This document shows, piece after piece, positions 4,002-24,882 of a stretch of DNA of 26,292 nt (position 1 is its first letter; every line of letters begins with the position of its first letter). Both the position numbers and the translations under genes were made by a program. Location of the stretch: assembly GCA_001275005.1 (NCBI GenBank), contig JWZX01002091.1, positions 1-26,292 on the forward strand. The letters are read 5' to 3'. The stretch comes from Chrysochromulina tobinii. Its lineage: Eukaryota > Haptophyta > Prymnesiales > Chrysochromulinaceae. Below the pieces are notes generated by a model. That model saw only the letters and a program-made list of their open reading frames with translations, had not been told where the DNA came from and searched no databases.

Positions 4002-4967
4002 TTACAAGTAAGGTACATAGCTGAACCGGGTGCGGTGCCGCCGTACTGAAACTAAACGATGACGAAACTCTACCGCGATCGATCGCTCTTCTCTACTCAT
4101 GTCTCTGTACTACTACACTTGACCAACGCGTAATATCGTACCCCAAGGAGCGGTAGGGGAGGGATTAATATCTGGATTTGCACACAATCCTCATACCCTG
4201 ATTTCAAACTGAGTGGGATCGCAACGTAACACATGTACCTAGTAAGATCGGATCCATGATCGGATCCTAGTTCTCAAAAGTACGTGTGGGACAGTAGTGG
4301 GACCATGCGATTCGTCAGTAGGGTGCGTTTTCGTAGGTTGGGGTGTGAAATCACAGAAGTGTGTGAAATCACATGGGGGGGTGTAATTGCGGAAGCCATG
4401 AAATCACACCCCCCGGGGCGTGAAAATCACAGCCCCCTGCGAAATCACATGGGGGTGTGAAATCACACGTGCCGCCTGCGATTTCACAGGGGGTGTGAAA
4501 TCGCATTTCGGTGTGAATTCATAGGTTCCTGTGATTTCACACCCCCACCTGCGAAATCACGGGACCCCTCCGAAACCCTAATGGACGGGACAGGCCGACG
4601 TGAAGGTCTCAGGCTGGCGGGGGGCGGGGGGTGGGCCGGGGCCCATGACCGAATCGACATGTCGTGTCAAGAGTTGTGTCACGTGTGGCGGGTGGGGCGT
4701 ACGATCGCCTAACCTTAGATACTACCACCCATGACTACCACCGCGCCCCCGCTCACGTCCCCGGGACCTCGTCGTCTTCGCGGCCACTGTCGAGAGTAAC
4801 GTCGAGGTTGCCTAAGTTGGACCTCGTCTTCAGAGTAACTGTCGAACTTGCCTAATTTGGACCTCGTCTTCGTTGGCCACTGTCGGGTTGTCGGGTTCTT
4901 CGGCGGCGCCATGCCAGCCTACCGCCTTTGAGCCTCCTCCGCCTTCACACCGGCATGGCCTCCGCCT
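4002..4967. other. convergent intergenic region, gene-free
   Basis: About 970 bp lies between two gene 3' ends. I find no credible coding frame. It holds a direct repeat GATCGGATCC at 4246-4255 and 4258-4267, the half-palindrome cluster at 4345-4560, and G/C runs around 4615-4645. Confidence 0.6.
4345..4560. repeat. cluster of about ten GTGAAATCAC / GTGATTTCAC motifs
   Basis: Copies start near 4345, 4363, 4398, 4420, 4439, 4457, 4478, 4494, 4531 and 4551. They occur in both orientations and most adjoin runs of four or more G or C. Each has arms GTGA...TCAC around a two-base core, so single sites are near-palindromic and neighbouring sites can pair with each other. It lies between convergent genes, so a 3'-end, hairpin, mobile-element or protein-binding role is possible. 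None is established. Confidence 0.7.
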
Positions 4968-7670: not shown

Positions 7671-9939
7671 ATGTGGTCGTTTGAACATGTTTGTATTGCA
7701 TGCAGGGCAGGTGCACTATCGCTGTTCGTTCACCCTCGCGGAACGCAAGCCGCTCGCCCCTCTTCGCCTCTTGGGCACGACTTCAAAATGCCCGCGACCG
7801 CCGGGCCCGATGACAAGCGCACCTGGAAACAACCGGCCATTCCGTTGTTGCCAGCGCGTCCCTTGCCCGCTGGTACATTCGACGACCCCTGTCAAGCGCA
7901 ATGGCTGCACAGGCGCTTTTTTCCACCCACGGAGCTGACGGCTCCTTCTCCACATGCCAAGTCTGCAGCCAAATCGCCGCGCCCGCCGAGTGGCAAACCT
8001 CGGGATGCCCAGCCACGCCAGCGACCAGTCACGGCCGCTCCGCGCACGGCTGCTGCTCCGGCGTCGCCGTCCGTCACCTCAACCCCTGGGCCTGCTTTGA
8101 CCCCGCAACCCTCGCACAGCGCGGCGGCGGCTGAGGCGGCCGCGGCGGCCAAAGCTACGGTGCTCTTTGCTGTTGGTGAGCGCGAGGCGGCGGTGGGCGC
8201 GCTGCGGGCTCTGCTACCCGCGCCGACCGGCCTCGTGGAGCGCCGCCGCGCGACCGTCCATCTACTATTGGATTCGCTCGAACTCAGCAGCCTGCGCACC
8301 GATTGCGCGATCTTGCTTCAGGCGGTACGGCGCGCGACGCTGGCGACGCTGCAGGCGGTGCACGCGTGGAAGGGGTGCCTCCGCACGCACTACTCTTACT
8401 TTGCCTCTCTCGACCCAGACGACATGCATTTCTATGTCGGGGGCGTCGACATGCTTCAGAAGATGTGCTCGATGCCAGCTGAATTTGCCTCTCTGATCGC
8501 CTCTGATCGCCTCCCTGTGCCGGCATCTGATGGCCTGTTGCATCCCCTATCAGGGATCAGGTGCTTGGCCTCCTCCCCGCGCCCTCTGCAGAGCCGCTGA
8601 TGAGCCTCTGATGACCTCTGATGATCTCTGATTGCATCCCTCATCAGGTGCTCCTCGCCCTGATGATCTCTGATTCCTTCCCTCATCAGGTGCTCCGACC
8701 TTGGCTTCTTCCCTGCGCCCACCGCGTGGGACCCTCTGCTCCTCCGATGGTTTGGAGAGCCGGTGCCTTGGATCCTCAACCATTACCGGTACGGGGGCGA
8801 CGAGCTCGTCTCCTCCTCCGCCGCCGCCGCCGCCGCCTCCACCGCCGCCGCCGCCGTCGCTGCCTCTGTCGCCGCCCCCGAGCGAGGCGAGAAGCGAGGC
8901 GAGGAGCCGTCCATGGAGCCGCCACCGGCAGTGATGAGGGATGCAATTAGAGGTCATCAGAGTCCATCGGAGGCGGCACTGCCGGCGAGTGCCGCCACAC
9001 GGGCGATGATGAGGGTGATCGTCCCTGCAGTGCGCCCGTTTGTGCCTCAATCACCAGAGGGGGGCTTGGGAGGCGGACCCACGCGAGCACACGTGAGCGC
9101 GGCCCAGGCAGACATGCTCAGCCTCTGCGCCCGGCACGGCACCTACCGCTCCCCTTCGCAGCTCGTGTCCGAGGCGGTCCCTCTCAACGCACCTGGGCGG
9201 ACCAAGCCAGGTCCATTGCATGCTGATTGCCTCCCTCATTGCATGCTGATTGCCTCCCTCGTTGCGAGCCAGGTCCGGGCGAGCGATGGCAGTGCATGCT
9301 GATTGCCTCCCTCATTGCATGCTGATTGCCTCCCTCATTGCGAGCCAGGTCCGGGTGAGCGATGGCAGTACGGCGCCTTCCAAACTCTCCTCTATGGCGC
9401 GGAGATCTATCCGGCGCTGCTGCGTGCACTCCCCGAGTACTTGGACTTCCAGCGCTTGTCCGACGCGGCGAGACTCGTCCAGCGGCTGTACCGCAATCGT
9501 GTGTCCCGGGGGCTCTTCCTGGGGCTCGGCAGCGGCATCGAGCGACAGCGCCAGGCTGAGCGCCTGGCTGCAGCGAAGCTCAAGTTCCGTGCCGCCATGA
9601 TGCTCCAGCGGTACTGGCGTGCAAGGCTGCTGCGGCGCGCGAAGAGCGAGCTCTCCGTTGCGGCGGACCTCGAGGGAAAGCGAGCGCGTGCGGCTGCCCA
9701 AATGGAGGACGCTCATAGGAAAGCATTCAAGGAGTCGTTGAGGCTGATGCGCGAGGGTGCCCTCGTTATGATCCAACGCCGCTCCTGGCATGCTGATTGC
9801 ATGCTGATTGCATGCTGATTGCATGCTGATTGCACCTCCCTCCTTGCATGCAGGTGCTCTCATCATGATCCAACGCCGCTGGAAATGGATCATGCGACGC
9901 AAGCGGCTCGAGGCGCTGCGCCGAGCACGTCCCAACTGA
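7671..9939 (+). CDS. IQ-motif (calmodulin-binding type) protein, four exons
   Basis: Inferred exons are 7671-8464, 8690-9210, 9349-9756 and 9854-9939. Phases agree and the joined frame is 602 residues. ATG 7788 (context AAAATG, MPATAGPDD) may be the real start instead of 7671. The order is a Pro/Ala-rich disordered N-terminus, a helical region, and, across the first junction, QKMCSDLGFFPAPTAWDP followed by LLLRWFGEPVPWILNHY, a continuous sequence that supports the splice. After a second Ala/Pro-rich stretch come three IQ-like motifs: VQRLYRNRVSRG (about 482-493), LQRYWRARLLRR (about 524-535) and IQRRWKWIMRRK (from about 580). The last one is formed by joining exons 3 and 4. IQ motifs bind calmodulin or related EF-hand proteins; no motor or enzyme domain is seen. 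Exon 2 contains a 31-bp reverse copy of the intron repeat (8932-8962). Confidence 0.72.
8465..8689 (+). other. intron 1 of the IQ-motif gene (family A), internally repeated
   Basis: The GT-AG intron splits the codon AT|G. It consists of three units beginning GTGCT at 8465, 8561 and 8648, and the last two start directly after CAG. The next exon begins with a similar sequence at 8690. The units are filled with CTGATGA/CTGATTGC and close on CCCTCATCAG. Any of the three CAGs could act as acceptor; 8689 gives the open joined frame. Confidence 0.65.
8932..8962 (-). repeat. inverted family-A repeat inside exon 2
   Basis: This is the reverse complement of the CTCTGATGACCTCT...ATTGCATCCCTCATC sequence found in intron 1 of the same gene. 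It is read in frame (VMRDAIRGHQS). Bases 8931-8960 start GT, end CAG and are 30 nt long, so either exonised repeat or micro-intron is possible. Confidence 0.6.
9211..9348 (+). other. intron 2 of the IQ-motif gene (family A)
   Basis: AGCCAG|GTCC occurs at the donor and again at the acceptor. Two tandem units of 76 bp carry GCATGCTGATTGCCTCCCTC. A 30-nt copy of the exon junction lies inside the intron (9264-9293) and matches 9340-9369 except for one base. Joining AAG CCA G to GT CCG GGT restores the frame. Confidence 0.75.
9757..9853 (+). other. intron 3 of the IQ-motif gene (family A)
   Basis: The first 26 nt (9757-9782) match the first 26 nt of the following exon (9854-9879) at 23 positions. 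Four GCATGCTGATTGC-type units and a CATGCAG acceptor follow. Splicing at G|GT joins MREG to ALIMIQRRWKW. Confidence 0.75.
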
Positions 9940-9986
9940 CAGCCCGGGCGCTGCGCCGAGCACGTCCCAACTGACAGCCCGGGCGC
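9912..9986 (+). repeat. 35-bp perfect tandem duplication across the stop codon
   Basis: Bases 9912-9951 recur exactly 35 bp downstream, through 9986. The copy includes the TGA at 9937-9939, so the protein end is unchanged and the duplicate lies in the 3' UTR. Confidence 0.9.
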
Positions 9987-10707
9987 ATCGTCACCGCTCC
10001 GGATCACCGAAGCCCAGATCTCCCATAGACCTCCCCCATATCTCCCCCGATCTGTGCTTTGTCTCATCTGCAACCGATCCTCGCGAGATGCAGCGAGATG
10101 CAAAGTCTGCAGCCGCCACGCCCGCAGCAGGCGCGCAGCAGGGTGCACCGTGAGAGGACCGTGAGAGGATGATCTTCGAGTTGCGATTAGAGCGCTTATG
10201 GGCGGGGCGAAAAGGCGGGGATGCCGTGCGTATCGCGTCGAGAGCGCGGAGTTAAAAGCGCGTAACGCGTAAGCCCGAGGTACCCTGTATCGCACCGGCC
10301 GCCTTCGTGTGAAAAGGCTAAAGGGCGGGGAGAGAGATGTCATCCGATCTGTGGAGATAGAGACCGGCTCGTCGTGCTGTATGTGTATCTATCGTTTGAC
10401 CGTCGTGTGCACACCAATCACCATCGCGCATCTTATTCATAATCTCTTTGAAATCGCACACAACACACGCTCTACTAGTACGTAGTTACACAATACGACG
10501 TAGTACGTAGCGAACTTGACGAGGAGATCTTCAACATGTAACTCCATCCGGGCTGCTGCTCAGTCGATGTGTGCTCTCGAATGCTCATGGCGCGCGCGAC
10601 CGGTCGTGTGAGCTGTTTACTTACCGGTCGGATCCATATGGCTCCGCTCTCAAAGAGCACGTGAGGCGCCGTGATGGGCGCAAGCGTATCATGCAAGGCG
10701 GACCATC
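9987..10707. other. convergent intergenic region, no gene seen
   Basis: About 720 bp with small direct repeats (GAGATGCA near 10086-10100, CCGTGAGAGGA near 10149-10168) and no credible coding frame. Transcripts converge here from both sides. Confidence 0.5.
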
Positions 10708-11823
10708 TCAAACGAGCGCCGGCTTGGGCTTCCTTTTCGAGTCGGACTTGGGCGAGGTCGTGCGCAGGGGCGAGACGGATGATTCCGAATTGGAGCAAGT
10801 GCCTTTCGCGTCATTCCCCCAGCCATGATAGGTCGGGCGGCATCGAATCGCGTTGACACTGTCCCACTGCTTCCCCGTCCAAATTTGCCCTGTGGGGAGC
10901 GGGAGGGGGTGGGGCGCCGTCGTGAGCACTTGCATGCTTCCTCTGGGGGAGCAAGCGATCGAAAGGAGCCACATGAAGCGGGGTTGGCAGGGGGGGTTGG
11001 CAGGGGGGGCTTGGCAGGGGGGGACGCAGGGTCGAGCAACCGGCGCTTCGCGCGGGCCGTACGAGAGCGTGCATACAAGTGCTCGCATTCTTGCTTGACC
11101 AGGGCGGAGCCACGCCCAGGATTTGCATGCATTTATTCTGCTTGTCGTCGTGCCACGTGGTGTACTGGGCGACCACCCAGCCGTGCTCGCCGTCGATCTG
11201 CCGAGCGAGACATGGATGAGATATGGACGAGATATGGACGAGATATGGACGAGATATGGACGAGATATGGACGAGATATGGGGGCTCGAGAAGGCTCGAC
11301 GAGTGAGGAGCGAGGGCGCCAGGCGAGGGAGATGCAATCAGGGAGATGCAATCAGGGAGGGCGCCAGGCGAGGGAGGCGACGGGAGCGAAGACGGGGGCG
11401 CGCACCTGGGCGCTCGCGATGCAAAGGTCGGCATCGACGTGCTTCCACATCGGCTGGCCGTTGGCGTCGCGGTTGCATACCTTGGCATACACACCGAGGC
11501 AAGCCACCTGGCACTTGAGCGCCGCCATCTCCGATCCCGGGTTGTCACCCGAAAGGGAAAGCTTCTGGGGAATAAGCTTCGCCGACGTTGCAACCTGTGC
11601 AGGTGGACACGGTGCTCAGCACACATGACCAGCACGCGCTACTACACTCGCGCGATAGAGTTTGAGCTCGTGGTGTGCGGCACACCATCTCCGTTGGAAG
11701 GTAATCGTACATGCCCTTCAATTTGGATGGCGGGGAGCGCTCGTAGCGGCCATCGATCTTGTAGTGGTGGTCTTCGTAAACCAGCCCTTGCTTGGTCGCG
11801 GCCACGTTGACGAGCAGCGACAT
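10708..11823 (-). CDS. small algal domain protein, four exons (NGQPMWKH type)
   Basis: Inferred exons on the minus strand are 11823-11686, 11528-11406, 11197-11131 and 10889-10708, total 169 residues. Exon 1 encodes YKIDGRYERSPPSKLKGMYD. Exon 2 encodes VYAKVCNRDANGQPMWKHVD. Exon 3 encodes IDGEHGWVVAQYTTWHDD. Exon 4 encodes IWTGKQWDS, a Trp-containing stretch and a Ser/Lys-rich tail. The pattern NGxPxWKH, then a short strand, then GWxVxQ is one I associate with a recurrent module of unknown function in microalgal proteins; this is from memory. Frames join cleanly at each site. The last intron requires a GC donor (AAAT|GCATGC) to read on into QIWTGKQW, and is the least certain. Introns are repeat-rich (families A and B). 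Confidence 0.5.
10890..11130 (-). other. last intron of the small algal domain gene (family B, probable GC-AG)
   Basis: Near its 3' end it carries the 16-mer GCATGCAAGTGCTCAC (10937-10922 in transcript direction), then ACGGCGCCCC, a C-rich tract and CCCCACAG. It also contains tandem CCCCCCTGCCAA units (about 10985-11030). Its start, GCATGCAAATCCTGGGCGTGG, loosely resembles the next exon's GGCAAATTTGGACGGG. Confidence 0.5.
11198..11405 (-). other. intron 2 of the small algal domain gene
   Basis: GT-AG (CCCAG|GTGCGC ... CTCGGCAG|ATCGAC), phase 0 at both ends. It contains family A units (CCCTGATTGCATCT twice) and a 12-bp satellite. Confidence 0.6.
11218..11281 (+). repeat. 12-bp tandem repeat (GAGATATGGACG)n
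   Basis: About five near-perfect 12-bp units lie inside the intron of the minus-strand gene. Confidence 0.9.
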
Positions 11824-12027
11824 GAGACTGAGAGGAAATGGTTTTCTGTTTTGGACGGCACAAGTTTTGACCAAGTTTCAAATCGAATTGTGCATGCAAG
11901 AGACAACCCAGCAGATACAAATTTAGTGGATCTCGAACCTCTCGAACTCCGAAATGGGAACGACTTTGCCGACCCTACCCTACGACATGCACGTGAAACT
12001 GCAGCACTAAGGCTCACCGCCCAGCTT

Positions 12028-15000
12028 TTAAACGACCCATGCATTGTCGGGTTGGGTAGGGTTCGGGCTCGGCCTTGCGGGCTTATCGCCGGCGCGGACG
12101 CGGGGGAAGCTCGCACAGAGCGCGTCGAGGCGTGGCACGATCTCGCGGAACTCGGGCCGCTGCTGCGCGTCCAGTTTCCAGCACTCGGAGATCAGGGACC
12201 TCAGCTCGGCCGGCCACTTGCGCGGCATCTCCGGCACGTAGCCTGTGCCGATCGCCCGACGAAATTGTTCGGGCAGCAAGTTTGAGAAGGGCTTCTCGCA
12301 GGAAGCGATCTCGTACGTGACGGTGGCGAACGAGAAGACCTCCGCCTTCGGGCAGTACGGCCTCGAGTTAGCCACCTCGGGCGCCATGTACCGGAGCGAG
12401 CCCGTCTCGCCCGTCAGGTTGCGCGCGAGGGTGTCGCTCGGATCGTTCTTGATTCCCCACAGGGTCGCGAGCCCAAAGTCGAAGAGGACGAGATGGTCGG
12501 GGTCCTCAGGGTCGTGGATGAAGCCGATGTTGTTGGGCTTCACGTCACGGTGCAGGACGCGGTAGCCCGGGAACGCGTCGTCGTGGCAGTACTTGAGGGC
12601 GCGCGCGAGCTGCGCCGCGCAGTGCAGGCTGCGCGAGAGCGGCCAGCGCTTGACTTCGCGCCAGCGCACCCAAAAGGGGACCGTGTCCGGGCCACGTGGC
12701 AACTGCGAGGGGAGCGTGTGGCTGAGCAGCTCGACGATCATGAGTGGGATGCCCTCGTGCTGGCCGAGCGCGTACGCCTTGAGCACGTTCGGGTGGTCCA
12801 TCAACGTCATCATCATGATCTCGCGCTTGAGACCCTCCACGGCAGATGGGATCTCGCGCTTCTCCTTCTTGAGCATCTTGATCGCCGCGGGGCGCCCATC
12901 GAGGCTCGTCTGATGAGCTGTCGCAAACTCGCCTTCACCCAAGTACCTGCACATGGTGAGCTTTGACATGTCGACCACCCGGGTGCCCGCGTCCCCGTCG
13001 GTGGTATACTTGCGGCGCCAGCGGGTGAACTCATGCATATCAGACCCGTGCTGGGTGTAGCCGTCGACGTTGGGCTCTCGTCGCGTTGACCAAGCCTCCG
13101 CCCCCGGCAGCGGCGTCCAAGCTTCACGAGCCGGGCTCGCCGCGTCCGAAATGAGCACGCCGAAGCGAGCGATCGTGTTGAGGGAGCTGCTGCCGCTCGT
13201 GCCGCCCGCCCACGGCGCCGTGCCGGGCGTCTTAGGCGGATCGCGCACGAAGGAGTCAAAGATGGTCGAGAGACGCATGGCGCCTGAGCTCGAAAAGGTC
13301 GCAGAGTTGCGCTCGGTGTTGCTCGCAGGGGAAGCAGGGGAAGCAGGGGAGTTGCCCAGGCTTGTGGAGCCTCTGTGCTGCCTGCCGGGCGCCTCCGAGC
13401 CTAGGGCCGATGAGACCGAGCGCTCGTATGGTTGGATTTCGTCGGCTTGGGTGGGTTTCGTCAAGCGCTCGAATGCTTGGATTTCGTTCGCCTGGTTAGG
13501 TTTCGTCAAGCGTTCGTGTGCTTGGATTTCGTTCGCCTGGTTAGGTTTCGTCAAGCGCTCGTGTGCTCGTCCGGACGAGTCGGACAGTTCCAAGAGCCGT
13601 TCCGAAAGCCGCCGCGACTCGAGCCGCTGATCAAGCGACGCCACCGCCTCCTTTGGCTTGCCGCGCTCGCTCGGGCCCGCATCGCTCGAGGCGCGCACCG
13701 ACTGGGGCGCCGGGTGGAGCTCGAGCTTGGCGTCCTGGCTGCCGTGGAGCTTCTCCGTGGATGGGGATATGAAAGGTCGTTCGGCCCTCGGGAAGATCTC
13801 GGGACGATCTCGGGAAGATCTCGGGAAGATCTCGTCGGACTCGTCCTCGTCGTCCTCTTTGGGGGGTAAGTCGTAGAGGACCTCCCCACTGAGCTTTCGG
13901 ATGCGCCGAGTTGACGAATGGACACGCAGCTGCGCATCGCTCGTGGTTGGAGCGGGGGCATGGGCAGAATCCGGGTCTTGTAGTACCCGCAGTACCTGAT
14001 GAGGGGGGCAATCAGACGCAATCAGACGCAATCAGAATCCGGGTCTTGTAGTACCCGCAGTACCTGATGAGGGGGGCAATCAGACGCAATCAGACGTAAT
14101 CAGAATCCGGGTCTTTAAGGTCCGGCAGTACCTGGACTTCCAACTCGGCACTCTTCCCTCGCGCGCGCCGAGGGGGCTCCGGAGACTCCAGAACGGCCGC
14201 GGCTTTGGTCGCCAGAGGACCCTCGGTGTCGTCATCGTCGTCGAGCCTGGGGCCAAAGAGCATCGCAACAGCGGTCGTGTCGTCGACCAGGCCGCGGCTC
14301 AGGGCCTTGCGCACGACCTGGCGCGCCGCGTCACGTGCCGAGTCGTACTCGCCCTTGAGTAGGATCGTCGCCGCCTCGTCCGCAGTCAGGAGGTCCCACA
14401 CGCCGTCGGTGCACGCGAGCAGCGCGCCGCCCTTGGGGGGCACCGGACATCTGGACCACACAGGCGCGGGGATGACGTAGCTCATGCAGTCGGCGTCGCC
14501 GACGGCGCGGGTGACGGCAAGGCCGCCGGGCCATGCTCGCAGCGGCCCGCCCTCTTTGCCATCTGCCGTCGTCGCGCGGCTGAGCTTGACACCGAGTGCT
14601 TGCAGCCGCGACTGCTCATCTGGATTGATCCCAAGCCGATGGCTCACGCCGAGGGGCGCGTGGCCGTCGGCGTCGACGAGCACTGCGAGAGAGTCGCCGA
14701 CGTTCCACACGTGCAGCTCTTGCCGCGACGCGTTGATGCAGCACACGGTGAGCGTCGAGCCCGAGGTCGTGCCCGACGTGCAGATCTCTTCATGCAGCGT
14801 GCGGAAGCTTGTCACGCACGCCCTGTTCAACTCGGTGCCGCTGCCGTTCCTTGCCTCCTGGACGATGAGCGGCAGGATCCACTGCGCTGCCGATTGTACC
14901 GCATCGTGGCCACCATGCCCATCCGCGATCAGCATGAAGTAGCACCGGTCCCCTGCGAGGCTTGCGCTCTGAGTCATGAAACGGTCCTCACGTTTGAGAT

Positions 15001-15112
15001 TCTTCTGGTAGCCGCCGCACATCACCTGGAGCGCGCCCTTCGACGCACCATGCCGAGATGCTGAGAACGCCGGCCCGCTCGATTTGCTGGGCGAACCCGT
15101 GAACCAAAACAT
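12028..15112 (-). CDS. PP2C protein phosphatase fused to a TKL-like protein kinase
   Basis: Two inferred exons, 15112-14132 and 13995-12028, give 982 residues. The N-terminal PP2C has ADGHGGHD (about 63-70), SGSTLTV (about 117-123), WNVGDS (about 136-141), LAVTRAVGD (about 198-206), CTDGVWD (about 234-240) and VDDTT (about 276-280), so the metal-binding aspartates look intact. After the junction there is an acidic linker, a three-copy 15-residue repeat (HERLTKPNQANEIQA) and a Ser/Pro-rich stretch. The kinase has LGEGEFATAH (about 679-688; third loop glycine replaced by Ala), AAIK (Lys about 700), HRDVKPNN (about 809-816), DFG (about 833-835) and APE (about 865-867). The C-lobe resembles TKL kinases (WPAELRSLISECWKLDAQQ). 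The domains join in frame only if the 136-nt intron is removed; if it is retained, a stop truncates the product after PP2C. ATG 15112 is the first in-frame ATG. Substrate unknown. Confidence 0.8.
13425..13565 (-). repeat. 45-bp repeat, three copies, in the phosphatase-kinase linker
   Basis: Each unit encodes HERLTKPNQANEIQA or a close variant, and a fourth partial unit follows. Nearly all differences are single substitutions. Confidence 0.8.
13793..13836 (-). repeat. 12-bp repeat GAAGATCTCGGG in the linker
   Basis: Near-perfect units encode the EIFPRSSRD-type acidic/Ser stretch of the kinase linker. Confidence 0.7.
13996..14131 (-). other. intron joining PP2C and kinase exons (family A, two tandem 68-nt units)
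   Basis: GT-AG, phase 0. Both units begin GTACTGC and end CCCCCCTCATCAG. The first 30 nt of unit 2 (14063-14034) are identical to the first 30 nt of the following exon (13995-13966), and unit 1 (14131-14102) matches at 25 of 30. The rest of each unit is CTGATTGCGTCTGATTGC-type repeat. Confidence 0.82.
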
Positions 15113-15748
15113 GCTGGCTGGGCCGCGTCTCCGTCTTGGTGCTGTCGACGGGCGTCCAAAAAGGTCTCCTGATGTGCGTCTAAAAAAATCTCCAACTAGA
15201 AAGTGATGATTCAAGAATCCAATCACGTATTTATAGAAACGCCCAAAATGCAGCGACCGACACAAAGTTCGAATGAAAGCCAACGTCGCGTGATTCGTTG
15301 TGTGTCAAGTCAAAACAGGACCACACAGTACCGCGGCGCTTATGTGCAAGCGCGTCCTCGGGGAGGCGCGTTTACATAATTGCCTTACTGGCAACCATGA
15401 CTGGCAACAGGCCAGAAAGCGGGGCGCCGCGAGGTGAGACTTTTGACTTTCGCCCAGATGGCGACGGGGAGCGCTGCGCCAATCACGGCGGCGAGCGAGA
15501 TGAGGCGCCGCGCAGGTGGTGAAGTCTGAAGAGTTTTTCGAGCCGCGTTCTATTACTATTCTATTGAGTCAACACACTACTTACTAACAGCTGGCCGCGT
15601 GGTACCGTACAGTAGCACCGTACAGTAGCATCGGTACGCTACGTTGACCAGAAGATGGCTGTACATGATACAGCTCTGCACTACGCCGTAGTACGCAGCA
15701 CACGAAACCGCCCAGCTCCTAACATCGTAAACGGTCACTACACAGTAT
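15113..15748. promoter_or_regulatory. intergenic region upstream of the phosphatase-kinase gene
   Basis: About 640 bp lies between two minus-strand genes. On the minus strand there is CTATAAATAC at 15228-15237, about 120 bp upstream of the ATG, with ATTGG (inverted CCAAT) at 15218-15222. These are candidate core-promoter elements. A direct repeat ACCGTACAGTAGCA lies near 15602-15632. No coding frame is supported. Confidence 0.4.
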
Positions 15749-18420
15749 CTAGGCCATCAGATCGGACTCGCCGCGCCTCGCATCGATTGCCCGAGTCAAG
15801 AGGGACCGAAGGTGAGCGCGACGCTTGGTTGGAGAACCCGCTGCCCTACGATCCGACTCAGTCACAACGGACCTAAAGCGACGCTTGGTTGGAGAGGGAG
15901 CCCCCTCATCCTCATCGTCGGCCGCTTTTGAGGTCAAGATCTCCGAATGGACATCGGCCATGTTGTCGATGGCCAATCGGATGTCGGCACGTTTTTCCTG
16001 CGGGCTTTTGCGATACTCATCAATCGCATGATTGATGTGGATCACCTCGCGTAAAGCATGGATCAGAATCGCCACTGAGCATACTCCGCCAAGGGTTCCG
16101 ATCACTTGTCCACCTTTGGCAAGCGCATCCGTGGTGATTCGGATGCTTATGACGGCAGTGATTCCAAAGATGGAGAAGCCGATCCCAAGCATGAAGAGAG
16201 TGTGAAGCTGCATGAACTCTTGACGAAGAGAGTTGACCAAGATCTGCAACTCGTCATAACGATCGTGACTGCTCTTCGTGCCATGGAGTACAATGTATAG
16301 GAATGACGTGTACAGGACTGTGAGCATGAGAAACATGGAGCCAGCACCATTTCCAACGACAAACGACAGCTCAAACAGCCATGAATCAAACTTGGCGCAC
16401 TCGAAGGCCTCCAGGCAGCATTCCTGCGAAGATCCTTTGACGGAATTAATCTTGCCCTCCACAAGTTGCCGGTACGGATCGATGCAGTAAAACTCATACC
16501 AATCGAGATCGTTCTTCACCTTGAGAGTCACATTGTTGCAGGATGCATGTGCTATGGCTTGGCAGCGCCCAGACGTCAGCATGACCCGGCGGAAGTCTAC
16601 CCATGCATCGTTGTCGACCGACGAGTAGTTCCCGAACGTCATCGTGAGGACGAGCGCAGCGGCCACGGCGTAGTTCATGCAGACCTTCTCCATGGCCGAT
16701 AAGTTGCCAGCTAGAGACAGGAAGAACGACTCGACCTGTTTTCTCCACGATCGGGTTTCACTCTCTCGTCTTTCAACTCTGGCCATATCAAAGAACTCTG
16801 CGATGGATTCAGAGTAGCCCACAGAGCCAAGGTCCTTGGCGAGCTTCCCATGGAGAGCACAGGCCTCGAGCTGTCCCATGGTATAGAGGCCGTGCTCGTG
16901 GAGCTTCTGGAGCAGCGCTTGGGCAGGCGTCTGGAGCCGCGCTCGGGCAGCGTCTGCACCCGCGCGCGAATCGATGGGGCCTGGCGCTCCTTGACGAAAT
17001 CGGACGAGGCCCTCGAGCCAGCTCTCGGAGATCTCGGCTGACTTGTCGAATTTGAACTCGAGTGGACCCATCCTGGGCAGCCCCATTTCGAAGCCTCCAT
17101 CCTTGAGCTCGGCAGCAGAGTAGCCAGCGCCAATGAGCTCCTTGAGCTTGAACTCGGCGAGCCGCATCTCCTTCGCCGTGTAGCCGGCGACCTTGAGCGA
17201 TCTCGCGTCGAGCTGAGCGCCCTTGAGCTCCTTCGCGCTGAACCCAGCCTCCCGAAGCTCGTGCGCCTCGTAGTGGCCTTCCCGCCCGCCACCCTTCCGC
17301 GCAGTCAGTGCTCCCTCGGCAAGGAGCTCTTTGAGCGTGCGCCCATCGACGGCCTCGGCAATCCTCTTCTTGAAGCCGGCCTTCGTGAGCTCGTCCACCG
17401 AGTAGCCGGCCTTCCGGAGCTCCTTCGCGACGAATCCGCCCGCCTTGAGCTCCTGCACAGGCGATCGGCCGCAGGGCGCGCTGTAGTGAGCACTTGCATG
17501 CAAGGCAGGCCATCCGCATGCAATCCACGTACCTTCACAGCCGAACGGCCGAGGCTCAACTCGAGATCGTCCTTGAGCGATGCGAGGGGCCAGCCGCCCG
17601 CTCTGAGCTCTTCCACCGTGACGCCGGCGTGCATGAGCTCTGAGGGTCGAAAGCCGTTGGAGCCGAGAACACGAGCCCCCAGCCGCGTGCGTGGGTTGAG
17701 CTCGATCAGCTCGCTCGAGGAGAAGCCTTCGAGGAGCTCCTTGGCGCTGAACCCTTGGTCCTTGAGCTGGGCCGCGCTAAACCCAAGCTCCCGAAGCTCC
17801 CTGGCCGAGCTCCTGGCCGCGCTCCTGGCCGCGCTCTTGGCCGCGCTCGCCGAGCGTGCGCCGGCATCCAAGTGGGAGGTGCTCGCCGCGGGCGGAGAGG
17901 CAGATGCAGCAGCGGCGCTCACCGCAGGTTTGATCGAGGCCCCTGAAGGCGTCGCCGCGGCACAGCCATACCTTTCAAGCCAGGCGGCCGTGCGTTGGAC
18001 TGCTGGCACCACTGAAGCCTCGCTCGATTCGACGGCGCCTGCACCCACCGCGAATCGCTCTGAGGCAGCACTGCTCGCTGGACCCTTGGCAGTCGCACGC
18101 GTTGAGGTGGCGCTCGTCGTTGTGCTCGAGGAGGCGCCGCGCTTGCTGATTTCGAGCGAGGGCGATTCGCCGTCGAAGAGCTGTTTGCGCAGGGCTTGCC
18201 GCTCGGGATGGGCAGAGCTGGGTGGCGATGTTGAGGTAGCCCCGTTGCGATGTTGAGGGGCCAAGCCGGACTCTTGCCGTGATGCCTGCGTCGTCGCACC
18301 GATGCGACATGCTCCACCAGTGGGCCGCTCCCGAGCCTCAGGCCTGGTGCTCGTCGAGTCAGAAGCATCATCGCGAAGCGCGCCGACCACCCTTGAGGCA
18401 GCGAGGTCGCGTTCGGGCAT
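15749..18420 (-). CDS. four-TM membrane protein with decapeptide repeats
   Basis: Two inferred exons, 18420-17533 and 17452-15749, give 863 residues from ATG 18418-18420. After a disordered Ser/Ala-rich N-terminus come about 15-17 decapeptide repeats of the form ELRxAGFSAK (for example ELRELGFSAAQLKDQGFSAK), spanning both exons and joined cleanly at AVK|ELKAGGF. Four hydrophobic helices follow, at about 557-573, 657-685, 714-734 and 745-763. The first two are separated by a loop of about 80 residues with six or seven Cys and an NNVT sequon, so the loop is probably extracytoplasmic and disulfide-bonded. The C-terminal tail has two SPTKRR motifs, possible proline-directed phosphorylation sites. 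I recognise no channel, transporter or enzyme signature. ELRxAGFSA-type repeats are common in algal and bacterial proteins, where they are thought to mediate contacts. Confidence 0.72.
17453..17532 (-). other. intron of the four-TM gene (family B)
   Basis: 80 nt, GTACGT...TGTGCAG, phase 0. It contains GCATGCAAGTGCTCAC (17501-17486 in transcript direction) followed by TACAGCGCGCCC. This intron shows no copy of the following exon. Confidence 0.82.
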
Positions 18421-18724
18421 TCCTAACCCGATCCACGGTTTTTGATGCAGCTGTGAAACACAAACGCGCACCTCCGGGGGCCTCTTGGACGGCGGTGTGA
18501 CCGATGGGGCCGACTACAACAACACATCGTAACTCACAACACACCTCCAATTCGGGCGAGCAAGCATGCATACGGCCCTTATTGCCATTTCGGATATCAA
18601 ACGGGCCAGGAATTCCTACCTATCACGAGATTCGAGAATCGTCTCTTGCGCTCTGGTAGTGTTGTGTCCCTGCTGACGGCGGAGGAGGTACGCACGCGAG
18701 GCAACCGATCCGATGGCGCGTGCT

Positions 18725-18783
18725 AGGCGGCCCTTGCGCTTGGGTCGCGCGCCGATGTCCTCCGCCGCCGGCCCGCCGCTCGC
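18725..18783 (+). repeat. 59-bp direct repeat, copy 1
   Basis: It starts AGGCGGCCCTTG and ends CCCGCCGCTCGC, and recurs at 18863-18921 with about four mismatches. Two of these would be synonymous in a plus-strand frame and two in a minus-strand frame, so coding status cannot be decided. Confidence 0.75.
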
Positions 18784-18862
18784 CGCCGCCGCATCTCGCA
18801 CTCGGCACAAGCGCTTCCCTTCGCCTCCTACACTCGAGCAGCTGCGCGCAGTGCATGCACAC

Positions 18863-18921
18863 AGGCGGCCCTTGTACTTGGGTCGCGCGCCAATGTCCTC
18901 TGCCGCCGGCCCGCCGCTCGC
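18863..18921 (+). repeat. 59-bp direct repeat, copy 2
   Basis: Second copy of the repeat at 18725-18783, at a spacing of 138 bp. Confidence 0.75.
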
Positions 18922-19101
18922 TCGCCCCCAGCAGCCTCTCCACCACGTCCCGTGCACCACGAGGACAGCTGCTGCTGCTCGCGGTGCCTTCGAGCTGCAG
19001 CTCCTTGCCCTCCGCCGTGCCGCGCGCTGCCACGGACCGTGCTGACCACGCCGCGTCCGTCCCACCCGCAGCCCTCCGCACGCAATCGACCAGGCGAGCG
19101 G

Positions 19102-22100
19102 ATGAGCCTCCTGGATGAAGACACGTACGAACGGCCCGACGCCGAGGTCCTCCCGCTGATCACGCCAGCAGCAGCCAGAAGGACGAATTTGGTGCGCCGC
19201 ATTTCGCACGCGACGCGCTCGGGACAGCGCCGCCCGGTGGCGAAGCGATCGACGGGGCGGGGGCAGGGGAAGGGCCGCAGGGGGAGGCGGCGGCGCGGCC
19301 GTACGACTCCGCACCTTCGCCATCGCTCGCGCGCCCCCCGCAAGCACCCTATCCCTCACATCTGCCCCACCCACGTCGTCGCTCACCCTCCTCTGATTGC
19401 TGCTGTGTTCCACGCGCAGCTCGAGCGGTTGCCCCTTCACTTGGCCGCTCTTTACAGCTCATCGGTGGCGGTGGTGCAGGCGCTCCTCGCGGCGTACCCG
19501 GAGGCCGCCATTGCGAGGGACATTGTACGCCGCCCCTCCCCCCTTGCATGAGAGGCCCTGAGCGGTCATCAGAGGTCATCAGATGTAATCAAGGGCAATC
19601 AGTGGTTATCATTCGCAATCAAGGGGCACTCAGCGGCACTCAGAGGACAATCAACGGCACTCAGAGCCACTCGGTGGCCACTCGGTGGGCCCCTCAGAGG
19701 CCATCAGCGGGCCCCTCAGAGGCCATCAGAGGTACTCAGTGGCTCATCAGAGGTGATCAGAGGCACTCAGAGGCACTCAGAGGTCATCAGAGACCACTCA
19801 GAGGCACTCAGTGGCATGCAGCGGCACTCAGAGGCACGCAGAGGGCCCTCGGCACGCGGTCTTCACCGCCCCTCACCCTGCGTAGCGTCTAAGCCCCCTG
19901 TCCCTCACATCTGCTCCACCCACCTCGTCGCTCATCCACCTTCTCTGATTGCTGCTGTGTTCCACGCACAGACCGGGGACACGCCCCTTCACGTGGCCGC
20001 TGTGTACAGCTCATCGGTGGCGGTGGTGCAGGCGCTCCTCGCGGCGAACCCGGAGGCCGCCACGGCGAGGAACAATGTACGCCGCCCCTCCCCCCTTGCC
20101 GCGTGGATGAGAGGCCCTGAGCGGTCATCAGAGGTCATCAGATGTAATCAAGGGCAATCAGGGGTCATCATTCGCAATCAGAGGGCACTCAGCGGCACTC
20201 AGCGGCACTCAGAGGGCACTCAGCGGCACTCAGAGCCACTCGGTGGCCACTCGGTGGGCCCCTCAGAGGCCATCAGCGGGCCCTCAGAGGCCATCAGAGG
20301 TACTCAGTGGCTCATCAGAGGTGATCAGAGGTACTCAGAGGCCCTCAGAGGTCATCAGAGACCACTCAGAGCCACTCAGAGCCACTCAGTGGCATTCAGA
20401 GGCACTCAGAGGGCCCTGGGCACGCGGTCTTCACCGCCCCTCGCCATGCGTAGCGCGTCTAAGCACCCTGTCCCTCACTTCCGCTCCGCCCACGTCATCG
20501 CTCACCCACCTCCTCTCATCGCTGCTGTGTACCACGCGCAGCACGGGGACACGCCCCTTCACAGGGCCGCTCGTAACAGCTCATCGGAGGCGGTGGTGCA
20601 GGCGCTCCTCAAGGCGAACCCGGAGGCCGCCAAGGCGACGGACAAGGTATGCCGCCCCTCCCCCCTTGCCGCGTGCATGAGAGGCCATCAGCGGTCATCA
20701 TAGGTACTCATATGTAATCAAGGACAATCAGGGGTCATCATTTGCAATCAGAGGGCACTCAGCGGCACTCAGATGGCAATCAGCCGCACTCAGAGCCACT
20801 TGGTGGCCACTCGGTGGGCCCCTCAGAGGCCATCAGCGGCCCCCTCAAAGGCTCATCAGAGGTGATCAGAGGTACTCAGAGGCCATCAGAGGTCATCAGA
20901 GACCACTCAGAGACCACTCAGAGCCACTCAGAGCCACTCAGTGGCATTCAGAGGCACTCAGAGGCACTCAGAGGGCCCTCGGCACGCGGTCTTCACCGCC
21001 CATTGCCCTGCGTATAGCACGTCTAAGCACCCTGTCCCTCACTTCCGCCCCACCCACGTCATCGCTCACCCACCTCCTCTCATCGCTGCTGTGTACCACG
21101 CACAGAACGGGCGGTTGCCCTTTCACATGGCCGCTTGGAACAGCTCATCGGAGGCGGTGGTGCAGGCGCTCCTCCAGGCGTACCCGGAGGCCGCCAAGGC
21201 GACGGACAAGGTACGCCGCCCCTCCCCCCTTGCCGCGTGCATGAGAGGCCATCAGCGGTCATCATAGGTACTCATATGTAATCAAGGACAATCAGGGGTC
21301 ATCATTCGCAATCAGAGGGCACTCAGCGGCACTCAGATGGCAATCAGCCGCACTCAGAGCCACTTTAAGCCACTCCGTGGGCCCCTCAGAGGCCATCAGC
21401 GGCCCCCTCAGTGGCCATCAGAGGTACTCAGTGGCTCATCAGAGGTGATCAGAGGTACTCAGAGGCCCTCAGAGGTCATCAGCCCACCCACCTCGTCGCT
21501 CACCCACCTCCTCTCATCGCTGCTGTGTACCACGCGCAGGAGGGGAACACGCCCCTTCACAGGGCCGCTGGTAACAGCTCATCGGTGGCGGTGGTGCAGG
21601 CGCTCCTCCAGGCGTACCCGGAGGCCGCCAAGGCGACGGACAAGTCTGTATGCCGCCCCCCCTCCGCCCTTGCCGCGTGGATCAGAGGCCCTGAGCGGTC
21701 ATCATATGTAATCATATGTAATCAATGGCAATCAGTGGTCATCATTCGCAATCAGAGGGCACTCAGCGGCACTCAGATGGCAATCAGAGCCACTCAGAGC
21801 CACTCCGTGGGCCCCTCAGAGGCCATCAGCGGTCCCCTCAGTGGCCATCAGAGGTACTCAGTGGCTCATCAGAGGTGATCAGAGGTACTCAGAGGCCCTC
21901 AGAGGTCATCAGAGACCACTCAGAGCCACTCAAAGGCACTCAGTGGCATGCAGCGGCACTCAGAGGCACGCAGAGGGCCCTCGGCACGCGGTCTTCACCG
22001 CCCCTCACCCTGCGTAGCGCGTCTAAGCACCCTGTCCCTCACATCCGCCCCACCCACGTCATCGCTCATCCTTGCTGCTGTGTTCCACGCACAGGGCGGG

Positions 22101-24844
22101 CGGACGCCCCTTCACTTGGCCGCTGTGTACAGCTCATCGGTGGCGGTGGTGCAGGCGCTCCTCGCGGCGTACCCGGAGGCCGCCAAGGCGACGAACAAGG
22201 TACGCCGCCCCTCCCCCCTTGCCGCGTGCATGAGAGGCAATCAGCGGTCATCAGAGGTCATCATATGTAATCAAGGGCAATCAGTGGTCATCATTCGCAA
22301 TCAGAGGGCACTCAGCGGCACTCAGAGGGCACTCAGAGGGCAATCAGAGGCCTCTCGGTGGCCCTCAGCGGCCCTCAGCGGGCCCTCAGAGGCCCTCAGA
22401 GGTGATTGTAAGCAATCGGAGGTCATCAGAGGCCAGTCAGAGGGCAGTCAGAGGTAATCAAGGGCAATCAGTGGTCATCATGAGCCATCGGAGGGCAATC
22501 AGTAGCAATCAGAGCCACGCAGAGGCCACGCAGAGGTCATCAGAGGTCATCAGAGGCACTCAGAGGCACTCAGAGGCACTCAGAGGCACTCAGAGGCACT
22601 CAGACGCAATCAGACGCAATCAGACGCAATCAGACGCAATCAGACGCACTCAGCGGCACTCAGAGGGCACTCAGAGGGCACTCAGAGGGCACTCAGCAGC
22701 ACTCAGCGGGCACCGGGACCCGAGACGGCCACGAGGACCCAGAGTGCCAGCGCCAGCATTGGTGGCGCGACGGCGGCGCGCGCGCGCCCGTTTGGCTGCG
22801 CCATCGTCGTGCGCACCTCCCCGTCCCTTTCGCCGCTGACGACCCTCGCTCCGCCGCCCTCGTTCTCCGCGTGCCCGCGCCGCAGTCTGGCAAGACGCCG
22901 GCCGACTGCGCCGCCACGCACAATGGCAACGCCGAGGTCAAGGCCTTCTTCGCGAGCGGCCAGGTGCGCCCGATTCGCATGCAATCAGAGGTCACTCAGC
23001 GGTCATCAGAGGGCACTCAGAGTGCACTCAGAGGCCATTGGGGGCACTCAGTGGCCATCCGAGGGCTCTCAGAGGCCAGTCAGCGGCACGCAGAGAGGCC
23101 ATCCGAGGCGATCAGAGGGCACTCAGAGGCACTCACAGGCCATCAGAGGGCACTCAGAGACCATCCTGGGCCATCATTCGCAATCAGCAGCACTCAGGCG
23201 CACTCAGTGGCAATCAAGAGGGCGCCGGGACCCAAGACGGCCACGATGGCCACATCGCGTGCTGAGCGTGCGCCGTGCGCGTGTGCGTGTGCGCGTGTTC
23301 GCAGCACTTGCAGGCGACGCCTGGGCAGTCAGCGGCGGCGGCGGACAAGGCGGCGGCGGACAAGGCGGCGGCAAAGGTGGCGGCGGACAAGGCGGCGGTC
23401 GCGAAGGCAGCGGCGGACAAGGCGGCGGCGGACAGGGCCGCAGCGGAGGAGCTGCGGCGCCGAGCCACGGCGCTGGGTCTGCTGCAGGTGCTCACGCCTG
23501 CCGGCATCGCCGACGACGCGACGTTGAAGAAGTCGATCGCGTGGTGCGACGAGCAGGGCGTGACGAGCGTGTCCGACATGGTCAAGTACGACGACATGGT
23601 CAAAGACTTTGTTCGCCATCTCGGCCTGAAGACGCTCCCCGGCAAGAAGCTGCTCAGCATGCTGCAGCCACCGACAGCCAGACTCGCTGGCCAGTTGAGC
23701 GACCGCCTGCCGCCCTCGCCAGAGAGTGAAGCCCAGCAGGCACCACCACCCCCGCCAGCAACGCTGGCAGCGTCCCGCTTCATCGAGAGCTATAACCAGC
23801 CCGAGCGCAGACCCGACCAGCTGTAAGCACTGATGACCACTGATTGCTACAGATTGCTACCGATTGCTACTGATTGCCCGAGCGCAGAAGAAGAATGCCT
23901 CGTGCGCTTGCATGTGATGCGCTTGCCTTCGGCATCCGCCCGCAGCTTCCAGCTCGAGGCGGCCGTGCACAGCCTCATCCTCGCGCACGCCCAGCGCGCG
24001 GGCATCGACCGCTCCGAGGCCGTCGGATTCTTCCAGACGCTGCGCACCAACGCCCTCAGGGCGGCCATGCAAGCAGGCGGGGGCGGCGCCGATGAGATCC
24101 TCCGACCCGATCAGCTCATGTACATCGCGGTGCGGCTGTGGACGTCGGCGGCGACGCTGCGCGGGCGCGAGTTCTGCTCGCTGCTCAACCAGGCGTTACG
24201 CGAAGACGGCGCGGACACCATCGACCACGCCGCCACCTGCACCCACGCCATCAACACCTTTTGCGTCGCGCGCCGCGGCGGCATCCCCGTCCCGTGGCCG
24301 AGCGAGCACGTCCTGTACCGCGGCGGCGCCATGCCACGCTGCTTCCAGAGCTTCTTCGCCGTGGGCAAGGCGTACCGCGCCCCCATGTTCATCGCGACGA
24401 GCGTGGAGCAGGATGTCTCGATCCAAACCTTCCTGATGCGGCTGCCGCCCGCGACCGCCTCGCAGTCGCCGCCCTTTCAGGAGCCGGTGCGCTGGCGCTT
24501 CCACCTCGATGGCGCTTCCACCTCGATCGAGCATGCAAGTGCTCACCACGGCGCCCTCCCCTTCCCTCTCCCCACAGGTACTCTGGCGCTTCCACCTCGA
24601 TGGCGCGCTCCCCCCGAACCGCCGCTGCGTCCACGTAAACTTCATCGACCGCACTGATGGCACCGTGCACGGCGAGGACGAGTTCCTCTTCGCGCCGTAC
24701 TCAACCTTCACCGTGCGCGCCTTCGAGTGGAGTCCGCAGCCAAGCGTCAACGCGTACACCTTGCGGCCGCACTATATCGACGTCAACGTCGCCAGCGACA
24801 ACCGGCGGCCGCCGCTCGACCTGCCGCTCGCGCCGTGGTGCTGA
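19102..24844 (+). CDS. ankyrin-repeat ADP-ribosyltransferase, about 11 exons
   Basis: Inferred exons: 19102-19191, 19420-19524, 19972-20076, 20542-20646, 21106-21210, 21540-21647, 22095-22199, 22886-22963, 23314-23822, 23883-24486, 24578-24844, about 726 residues. Exons 2-7 are each one ankyrin unit of 35 codons (36 in exon 6), phase 0 at both ends, such as GDTPLHVAAVYSSSVAVVQ. Exon 8 is a divergent last ankyrin (GKTPADCAATHNGN). Exon 9 encodes an Ala/Lys-rich helix (AAADKAAADK) and a small helical region. Exons 10-11 encode an ADP-ribosyltransferase with the R-S-E pattern: LYRGG (Arg about 583), MFIATS (Ser about 610) and GEDEFLFAP (ExE, Glu about 671 and 673). This pattern belongs to the NAD:arginine class; target unknown. 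No signal peptide, so probably intracellular. The exon 9-10 junction is the weakest (60-nt intron ending CCGAG); exon 9's acceptor could be 23305, 23314 or 23329. Confidence 0.72.
19192..19419 (+). other. intron 1 of the ankyrin-ART gene
   Basis: The donor TTG|GTGCGCCGC resembles the GTACGCCGC donor of the later ankyrin introns. The 3' part (CACCCTATCCCTCACATCTGC onward, ending CACGCGCAG) matches the 3' ends of the later introns, so this intron shares their ancestry but lacks the 10-bp array. Confidence 0.6.
19420..22199 (+). repeat. six tandem exon-plus-intron units of about 560 bp
   Basis: Ankyrin exons begin at 19420, 19972, 20542, 21106, 21540 and 22095 (spacings 552, 570, 564, 434 and 555). 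The introns share a start (GTACGCCGCCCCTCC), a middle array and an end (GCACGCGGTCTTCACCGCCC ... CCACGCGCAG). The intron before exon 6 has lost about 120 bp, including the GCACGCGGTCTTC block. Introns look about as similar between units as exons do, which implies recent duplication or gene conversion. Confidence 0.9.
19545..19850 (+). repeat. 10-bp-period array (CACTCAGAGG/TCATCAGAGG), first intron copy
   Basis: Units are NNAYTCAGAGG-like with a dominant 10-bp step, and are the reverse complement of the CCTCTGATTGC/CCTCTGATGA units in the other genes' introns. Equivalent arrays lie at about 20100-20420, 20680-20970, 21240-21480, 21690-21975 and 22235-22710, and in the intron at 22964-23313. 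Confidence 0.88.
22200..22885 (+). other. long intron 7 of the ankyrin-ART gene with perfect 10-mer runs
   Basis: It contains about five perfect CACTCAGAGG units (about 22555-22605) followed by about five CAATCAGACG units (about 22605-22655), then a GC-rich segment leading to CGCGCCGCAG. No exon is evident in the GC-rich segment at 22700-22885, although it is open in more than one frame. Confidence 0.6.
23823..23882 (+). other. candidate 60-nt intron 9 of the ankyrin-ART gene
   Basis: The donor CT|GTAAGC is strong. Ending at CCCGAG|CGCAG gives 60 nt and restores the ART frame (PDQL|AEEECLV). CCCGAGCGCAGA also occurs just upstream of the donor. An alternative acceptor at CTACAG would make a 30-nt intron that also keeps the frame. 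The body is family A (CTGATTGCTAC). Confidence 0.45.
24487..24577 (+). other. last intron of the ankyrin-ART gene (family B)
   Basis: 91 nt, phase 0 (GAGCCG|GTGCGC ... CCCCACAG|GTACTC). Its first 29 nt (24487-24515) match the first 29 nt of the next exon (24578-24606) except at two positions. It then carries GCATGCAAGTGCTCAC (24531-24546), CACGGCGCCC and a C-rich end. Confidence 0.85.
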
Positions 24845-24882
24845 CGGGCTACCTGCCGCTCGCGCCGTGGTGCTGACGGGCT
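24819..24882 (+). repeat. 32-bp perfect tandem duplication across the stop codon
   Basis: 24819-24850 is repeated exactly at 24851-24882. The unit contains the TGA of the ankyrin-ART gene (24842-24844), so only the 3' UTR is lengthened. Confidence 0.92.

Follow-up and report, generated by a model that had tools for sequence, protein, structure and literature searches.

Unrelated genes of the haptophyte Chrysochromulina tobinii contain introns whose opening bases duplicate the start of the downstream exon, and these exon-copy introns are real and genome-wide. They share a single order, with copy A at the start of the intron, followed by an insert from one of two families and then by copy B, the target sequence, at the start of the next exon. 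We propose, with a probability of about 0.8, that these young introns are introners gained by the insertion of an acceptor module, with a long target duplication supplying the donor GT. An earlier note on this DNA had likewise envisaged that such introns are born when an inserting element is left flanked by a long target duplication, from which a GT is recruited as donor, and this fits the layout, the empty sites in homologous proteins and the recurring module. The window analyzed is one whole contig (JWZX01002091.1; 26,292 nucleotides), and the genome searched comprises 53.15 Mb in 2,253 contigs, with a GC content of 63% in a 200-kb sample; the genome report, in excerpt, gives 59 Mb, 63.4% GC and an average of one intron per gene (PMC4580454).

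Exon-copy introns in the window

Three of the five pairs of segments that had been cited as duplicated exon starts are borne out, with copies of 27-31 nt. In the gene at 7788-9939, intron c (9757-9853, plus strand; 97 nt), recognized from its match to the exon start, its frame and its layout, consists of copy A (9757-9783) and an insert (9784-9853) that ends in CTCCTTGCATGCAG, with copy B, the target sequence, at the start of exon 4 (9854-9880, plus strand); the match of 9757-9782 to 9854-9879 was re-measured as 23 of 26. An intron with a family-2 insert (24487-24577, plus strand; 91 nt) is recognized from its match, frame, layout and family-2 core. Here copy A (24487-24515) precedes an insert (24516-24577) with its core at 24531-24555 and the end CTCTCCCCACAG, and copy B, the target sequence, opens the last exon (24578-24606, plus strand), agreeing with copy A at 27 of 29 positions on re-measurement. 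The third case, again called from match, frame and layout, lies on the minus strand in a PP2C-kinase gene (13996-14131; 136 nt, or 2 x 68), the kinase and PP2C labels being the Pfam identifiers listed for the homologous protein P0006. Its order on that strand is copy A (14131-14101), module (14100-14064), a second copy (14063-14033) and a further module (14032-13996), followed by copy B, the target sequence, at the downstream exon start (13965-13995, minus strand); the re-measured match of 14131-14102 to 13995-13966 is 25 of 30, while the second unit matches at 30 of 30.

The remaining two pairs are not as had been described. The segments at 9264 and 9340 do match at 29 of 30, but they do not represent a copy at the intron start: intron b of the same gene (9211-9348, plus strand; 138 nt; called from frame and layout) instead contains a 76-nt tandem duplication of the intron tail, or module, plus exon start, which extends over 9217-9369. 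The start of intron b has GTCC alone in common with the exon start, and a duplication of about 10 nt, AGCCAGGTCC, is possible by eye if the match spans both splice sites. The weaker pair, 8465 and 8690, is unconvincing at 13 of 31 without gaps; intron a (8465-8689, plus strand; 225 nt), which has this weak copy and is called from frame, contains degenerate copy-plus-module units and would at best be a decayed version of the copy layout.

Removal of each of these predicted introns joins two open frames in one phase; left unspliced, the sequence read in that phase reaches a stop codon 13 to 56 codons on. We infer that the segments from copy A through the module are spliced out, a reading that both the frame continuity and the junctions in homologous proteins fit. 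It had also been remarked that the intron copy encodes a nearly identical peptide; this similarity stands and needs no selection, since the differences between copies A and B fall at all three codon positions (3, 6 and 8, respectively, in the 20 of 41 curated introns with a clear frame). The idea of selection on the peptide encoded by the intron copy was accordingly dropped, such a distribution being that expected of recent copies.

Two genes of the window also carry perfect tandem duplications that include their stop codons (9912-9986, 35 nt x 2; 24819-24882, 32 nt x 2). As a guess, we take two window genes to be IQ-like and ART-like.

Insert families and intron anatomy

The inserts fall into two families. 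In family 1, units of 10-11 nt (TGATGACCTC, GCATGCTGATT) form an array whose end is CTGATTGCCTCCCTCATCAG or, less commonly, GCATGCAG, and family 2 has the core GCATGCAAGTGCTCACCACGACGCC and the end CCCCACAG. Thus, inserts terminate in CTCATCAG, GCATGCAG or CCCCACAG, and a poly(A)-like or simple 3' tail is absent. They contain CTGAT and CTCAC, which we take to be branch-point-like motifs; together with the pyrimidine tract and the terminal AG, these suggest that what the insert brings along is a complete, portable 3' splice site, and that it lacks its own donor.

For a broader view of the anatomy, 47 introns were found and 6 tandem-internal ones dropped, leaving a curated set of 41; sites with a repeat running into module arrays had been removed earlier, and the filters excluded the window kinase-gene intron and retained the tandem-looking L087 and L082. 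In these 41 introns the duplication is 9-42 nt long (median 23, quartiles 18-30 nt), the identity of the two copies has a median of 0.95, with 14 pairs perfect, and the introns and inserts measure 51-202 and 33-190 nt, respectively. The exon-derived copy accordingly makes up 9-42 nt of introns of 51-202 nt, rather than the whole intron. The last 20 nt of the insert are near-invariant, its first 10 positions show no consensus (highest base frequency 0.41), and neither terminal inverted repeats nor a 5' terminal motif are visible in the set. The base directly upstream of copy A is G in 85% of the cases, and the far end of the duplication displays no motif or consensus. The insert thus has a fixed 3' end and a variable 5' end, with the proviso that the sites were chosen by the 3' end and that the 5' part is a simple array, so that truncation at the 5' end is putative. 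Some inserts contain extra partial copies of the flank (L068, L071 and a 17-nt repeat at 24493-24527).

Several other stretches of the window contain sequence resembling these families. At approximately 10880-10945 on the minus strand there is a family-2-like acceptor (GCATGCAAGTGCTCACGACGGCGCC...CCCCACAG) with no detectable exon copy. At 19329-22700, a single gene, whose repeats we presume to be ankyrin-like, is built of tandem exon-plus-intron units of about 430-570 nt, their introns being filled with units that resemble the complement of the family-1 repeat. An imperfect inverted repeat between two genes (4329-4556) includes several TGTGAAATCACA-like units.

Genome-wide recurrence

The exact 18-nt 3' splice module GATTGCCTCCCTCATCAG has 991 copies in the genome, of which 666 (67%) are directly followed by GT, against none for the reversed-pattern control. 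With up to 3 mismatches there are 4,141 sites of module plus GT and 1,869 family-2 cores, both counts being inflated by arrays, and again none for the controls. Viral contigs had no exact match to either of the two patterns searched in them.

Whether an intron start resembles its own downstream exon can be asked against shuffled partners, a comparison for which 36 of the 666 sites were taken, one per contig and from contigs not already sampled, hand-picked from the first 100 listed with their flanks not known beforehand; 189 nt were fetched for each, an own-exon copy was scored positive at 9 or more, and no rows were dropped. The excess over shuffled controls for which the earlier note had proposed a test is evident at these sites: an exon copy at an upstream GT scores at least 9 at 24 of the 36 module sites, as opposed to 0.32% of 1,260 shuffled pairings. 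Seventeen of the 24 positives are clean, and seven lie in tandem units or run into arrays (L069, L074, L076, L082, L083, L085 and L087). At the other 12 sites no own-exon copy reaches a score of 9 within 189 nt; their introns may be longer than this, older, or made otherwise. In another sequence sample, 26 of 104 CTCATCAG sites score at least 10 where 2.3 are expected, with seven rows of one L039 array and two of an L007 array among the 26. For family 2, an exon copy is found at 3 of 9 testable sites in a 226-kb sample, compared to 5% of 180 shuffled pairings.

Two broader approaches were set aside. When direct repeats of every kind were screened for AG|GT at their left edge, 8-11 cases were counted against 4.1-5.5 expected; the mirror-image right edge showed a similar, approximately two-fold excess (9-15 against 4.2-7.1), and the scan was dropped for its low power, being swamped by coding repeats. 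Introns were also predicted ab initio by means of a home-made coding model; many of the resulting 57 candidates were unreliable, and they served as a guide only.

With respect to orientation, the 226-kb sample contains 13 module sites, of which 8 (in 6 distinct introns) are sense to the coding strand, none is antisense and 5 are unclear, as counted with a strict pattern that missed one antisense copy in the window. The latter is a family-1 module on the minus strand (8932-8974; 88% complementary to 8604-8646) that lies within a coding exon and is translated; the close relative P0001 is, by eye, without about 15 residues at this position. A further insertion, L011 (minus strand, 1447-1535), has a duplication of about 31 nt that starts with CTG rather than GT, and splicing from a GT inside the copy would there repeat 8 residues without shifting the frame.

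Empty sites in homologous proteins

The comparison of intron presence and absence in orthologues that had been suggested was made at the protein level, and in three genes it reveals homologues with an uninterrupted, single-copy site. The widest sampling is available for the gene with the 24487 intron, for which 45 homologues were collected as proteins predicted from other assemblies: 35 are uninterrupted, 6 have the intron and 4 do not cover the junction. The junction QEP|VLWRFHLDG aligns free of any insert in 35 of the 45, with small gaps in a few distant homologues; one of the 35, P0023, comes from a transcriptome and is uninformative on introns. The six carriers run into the intron copy (QEP|VRWRFH), and one of them, P0007, continues in frame through the whole intron. 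Over the aligned part, P0012, P0013, P0015, P0016 and P0020 are 94-99% and P0007 87% identical to the window protein, and the uninterrupted homologues include comparably close ones, namely P0019 (95%), P0011 (93%) and P0008 (88%). Several carriers differ from the window protein and are hence independent sequences, which argues against an assembly error. Judging from the read-through into introns, the ENA/JGI contigs are likely to be DNA. A paralogue in the same genome, with 36-40% identity, is also open across the intron site.

P0011 and P0019 begin with MACLACKCSPQ or MTCLACKCSPQ, followed by REFCSLLN, at a position where the window gene is intronless. This start reads as a family-2 module, and its occurrence despite the empty 24487 site makes the two sequences look genomic, with a lineage-specific introner; it reads as an independent introner gain in a near relative within the gene at 23.9-24.8 kb.

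The PP2C-kinase gene offers a similar contrast: P0005 has the intron, its protein beginning in the intron tail (LRLIASDCPPHQ|VLRVLQ), while P0006 is without it and crosses the site uninterrupted, with a four-residue gap beside the junction. Elsewhere in P0006, the family-2 core can be read in frame as SMQVLTTAP, a segment to which nothing corresponds in the window protein, and which is perhaps an introner read as protein.

In the gene at 7788-9939, alignment with homologous proteins shows P0001 and P0004 to be uninterrupted across the intron c junction and to have no counterpart of intron b. P0004 (55% identical) crosses all three junctions, a, b and c, and P0001 crosses b and c; P0001 starts at an internal valine position read as a start, which suggests an upstream intron and hence genomic DNA. 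At the position of intron a, P0002 and P0003 also run into an intron. Intron a, which is present in these relatives, has the most decayed copy, and intron c, absent from P0001, has a clear one; intron a is probably older.

These introns thus have a sequence shared by many introns of unrelated genes, as is typical of introners, and their sites are present or absent among relatives, as seen at the protein level in three genes, pointing to recent gain. The duplication of 3-9 bp of earlier introner families is not seen here, and it is not required of all families.

How might the introns arise?

In the preferred scenario, a short mobile module would carry the rear half of an intron only, i.e. the branch-point-like motif, the pyrimidine tract and the terminal AG. 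Upon inserting into coding sequence it would duplicate about 9-42 nt of the target, giving the series exon 1, copy A, module and copy B. If GT stands first in the duplicated stretch, the GT of copy A would serve as donor and the AG of the module as acceptor, and splicing would restore the original message exactly; it is the layout that leads us to recruitment of the donor from the duplication. To the extent that proteins can demonstrate it, the comparison of homologues establishes that a module inserted and that its target was duplicated. Subsequently, unequal exchange between the long direct repeats probably generated the introns with several units (68 nt x 2, 76 nt x 2 and others).

In the model of Rogers (1989), on the other hand, a coding segment containing AGGT is duplicated in tandem, the first copy becomes the intron and a minisatellite later grows inside it. 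The copies are indeed direct repeats in a length-neutral register, and tandem units are repeated within some introns, as with the 68-nt unit of the kinase gene and the 76-nt unit of intron b. However, the sequence between the copies is not exon-like and the same module end occurs at hundreds of places, pointing to material from elsewhere, and we regard this model as highly improbable. The same final layout would be anticipated if old introns had had their 5' part overwritten by exon sequence, through partial conversion by cDNA. Yet this is barely plausible, as three genes have uninterrupted homologues, several of them very close, one module is common across genes, and no outgroup among the proteins examined has an ordinary intron at the same site.

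Insertion itself may take more than one form. MITE-like introners were reportedly described in a 2016 paper on Micromonas and Aureococcus, and a cut-and-paste DNA transposon of this kind would account for the high copy number, the target duplication with its donor and the single antisense copy in an exon. Such a transposase is disfavored by the lack of a fixed duplication length, which would be expected of a cut-and-paste element or MITE (9-42 nt in the 41 introns), and by the absence of any visible terminal inverted repeat or 5' terminal motif, and we consider it very unlikely. More generally, if a DNA element inserted freely, numerous copies would be expected between genes and away from GT: the sense bias in the 226-kb sample and the location of two thirds of the modules before GT speak against this, and the antisense module at 8932-8974 in a coding exon and the non-GT duplication of L011 speak for it. 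A rather doubtful but more serious contender is templated repair of staggered double-strand breaks or paired nicks, in which fill-in duplicates the target and the 3' end of an existing intron is used as filler. It accommodates the variability of both the duplication length and the 5' insert end as well as the extra partial flank copies in L068, L071 and at 24493-24527, and the neo-introns of Daphnia, with repeats of 4-12 bp, are interpreted likewise in the excerpted report (PMC4202315). Against it, random filler is unlikely to yield one consensus ending at AG in 991 places, and the sharp right-hand end would need selection.

For the acceptor-module insertion that we favor, the most likely insertion step would be target-primed and retro-type, a view that we hold tentatively and at slightly under even odds. 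Target duplications of variable length are also found with non-LTR and SINE-like retroposons, and target-primed insertion would account for such duplications as well as for a 3' end that is fixed and a 5' end that varies. The inserts differ from these retroposons in having no poly(A)-like or simple 3' tail. A first nick would fall at the future G|GT junction and a second, at a distance that varies, on the opposite strand, and the added copy would start at the fixed 3' end of the module and stop at a variable 5' point. We consider it unlikely that excised intron RNA is itself inserted, with the introns spreading as true retroelements. The free 3' end of this RNA (...CATCAG) would then be copied by reverse transcriptase, primed at a nick before a coding GT, and copying would end early, near or beyond the branch point, so that the donor is built from duplicated host coding sequence. 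Such a route would account for an end that falls exactly at AG, for the variability of the 5' end and of the duplication, for the predominance of sense copies and for the rarity of copies that do not adjoin a GT; the main point against such a sense-only RNA route is the antisense copy at 8932-8974.

Implications and comparison with known systems

The origin of spliceosomal introns is a long-open question with few recent cases. This genome has hundreds, perhaps thousands, of young introns, each of which records its own target sequence, and since close relatives with empty sites are available, the mechanism is open to direct tests. The introns suggest that an element needs to bring the acceptor only, the host gene supplying the donor via the duplication. 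In addition, the exon-copy signature offers a simple way of recognizing young introns in other genomes.

The comparisons that follow rest on excerpts of the published accounts. Long, variable duplications in an introner family are not described among the matches listed in the open literature, outside which most subscription papers fall. The observation of the earlier note that known introners have shorter duplications is confirmed: those previously characterized, in families having duplications, are of 3-9 bp (PMC9860276), and some families, as exemplified by Symbiodinium, bring their own 3' splice site and derive the 5' site from the duplication (PMC9860276; Gozashti et al., 2022). The introners of that survey resemble the present ones as repeated introns at new sites, with some insertions adding codons; the family from a Chrysochromulina sp. 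has duplications of 4 bp and brings the 5' site, the 3' site being the one co-opted, in contrast to the variable duplication of 9-42 nt and the carried 3' site seen here (PMC9860276). Introner elements also occur genome-wide in another protist, Amoebophrya, where they have direct repeats of 3-5 nt, inverted repeats of 8-20 nt and many non-canonical splice sites (PMC7789003).

Outside of introners, the Daphnia neo-introns likewise have the end of the adjacent exon directly repeated at the far end of the intron; however, the repeats are 4-12 bp, no high-copy shared acceptor module is noted in the excerpt, and they are attributed to staggered breaks (PMC4202315). In Drosophila, the splice sites of new introns are marked by direct repeats of 8-18 bp, which in one case produce a repeat of 8 residues, but these introns comprise seven cases with no source found for the insert, according to the excerpted report, whereas here one family supplies it (PMC2809761). 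In the RdRp gene of potato, a duplicated intron tail plus exon start can give rise to a new intron, which resembles our multi-unit introns, although the first insertion here brings a module from elsewhere (PMC4974935). Direct repeats of 4-30 bp at intron borders are likewise reported by Rogers and Bendich (2025), in a survey of 213 introns of all classes in which the repeats average 11.4 bp and are mostly imperfect, and whose excerpt mentions no shared insert family (PMC11782384). Hence, introners, including some with a donor derived from the duplication, are already known, and what appears to be new in C. tobinii, going by its genome sequence, is a duplication that is both long and variable.
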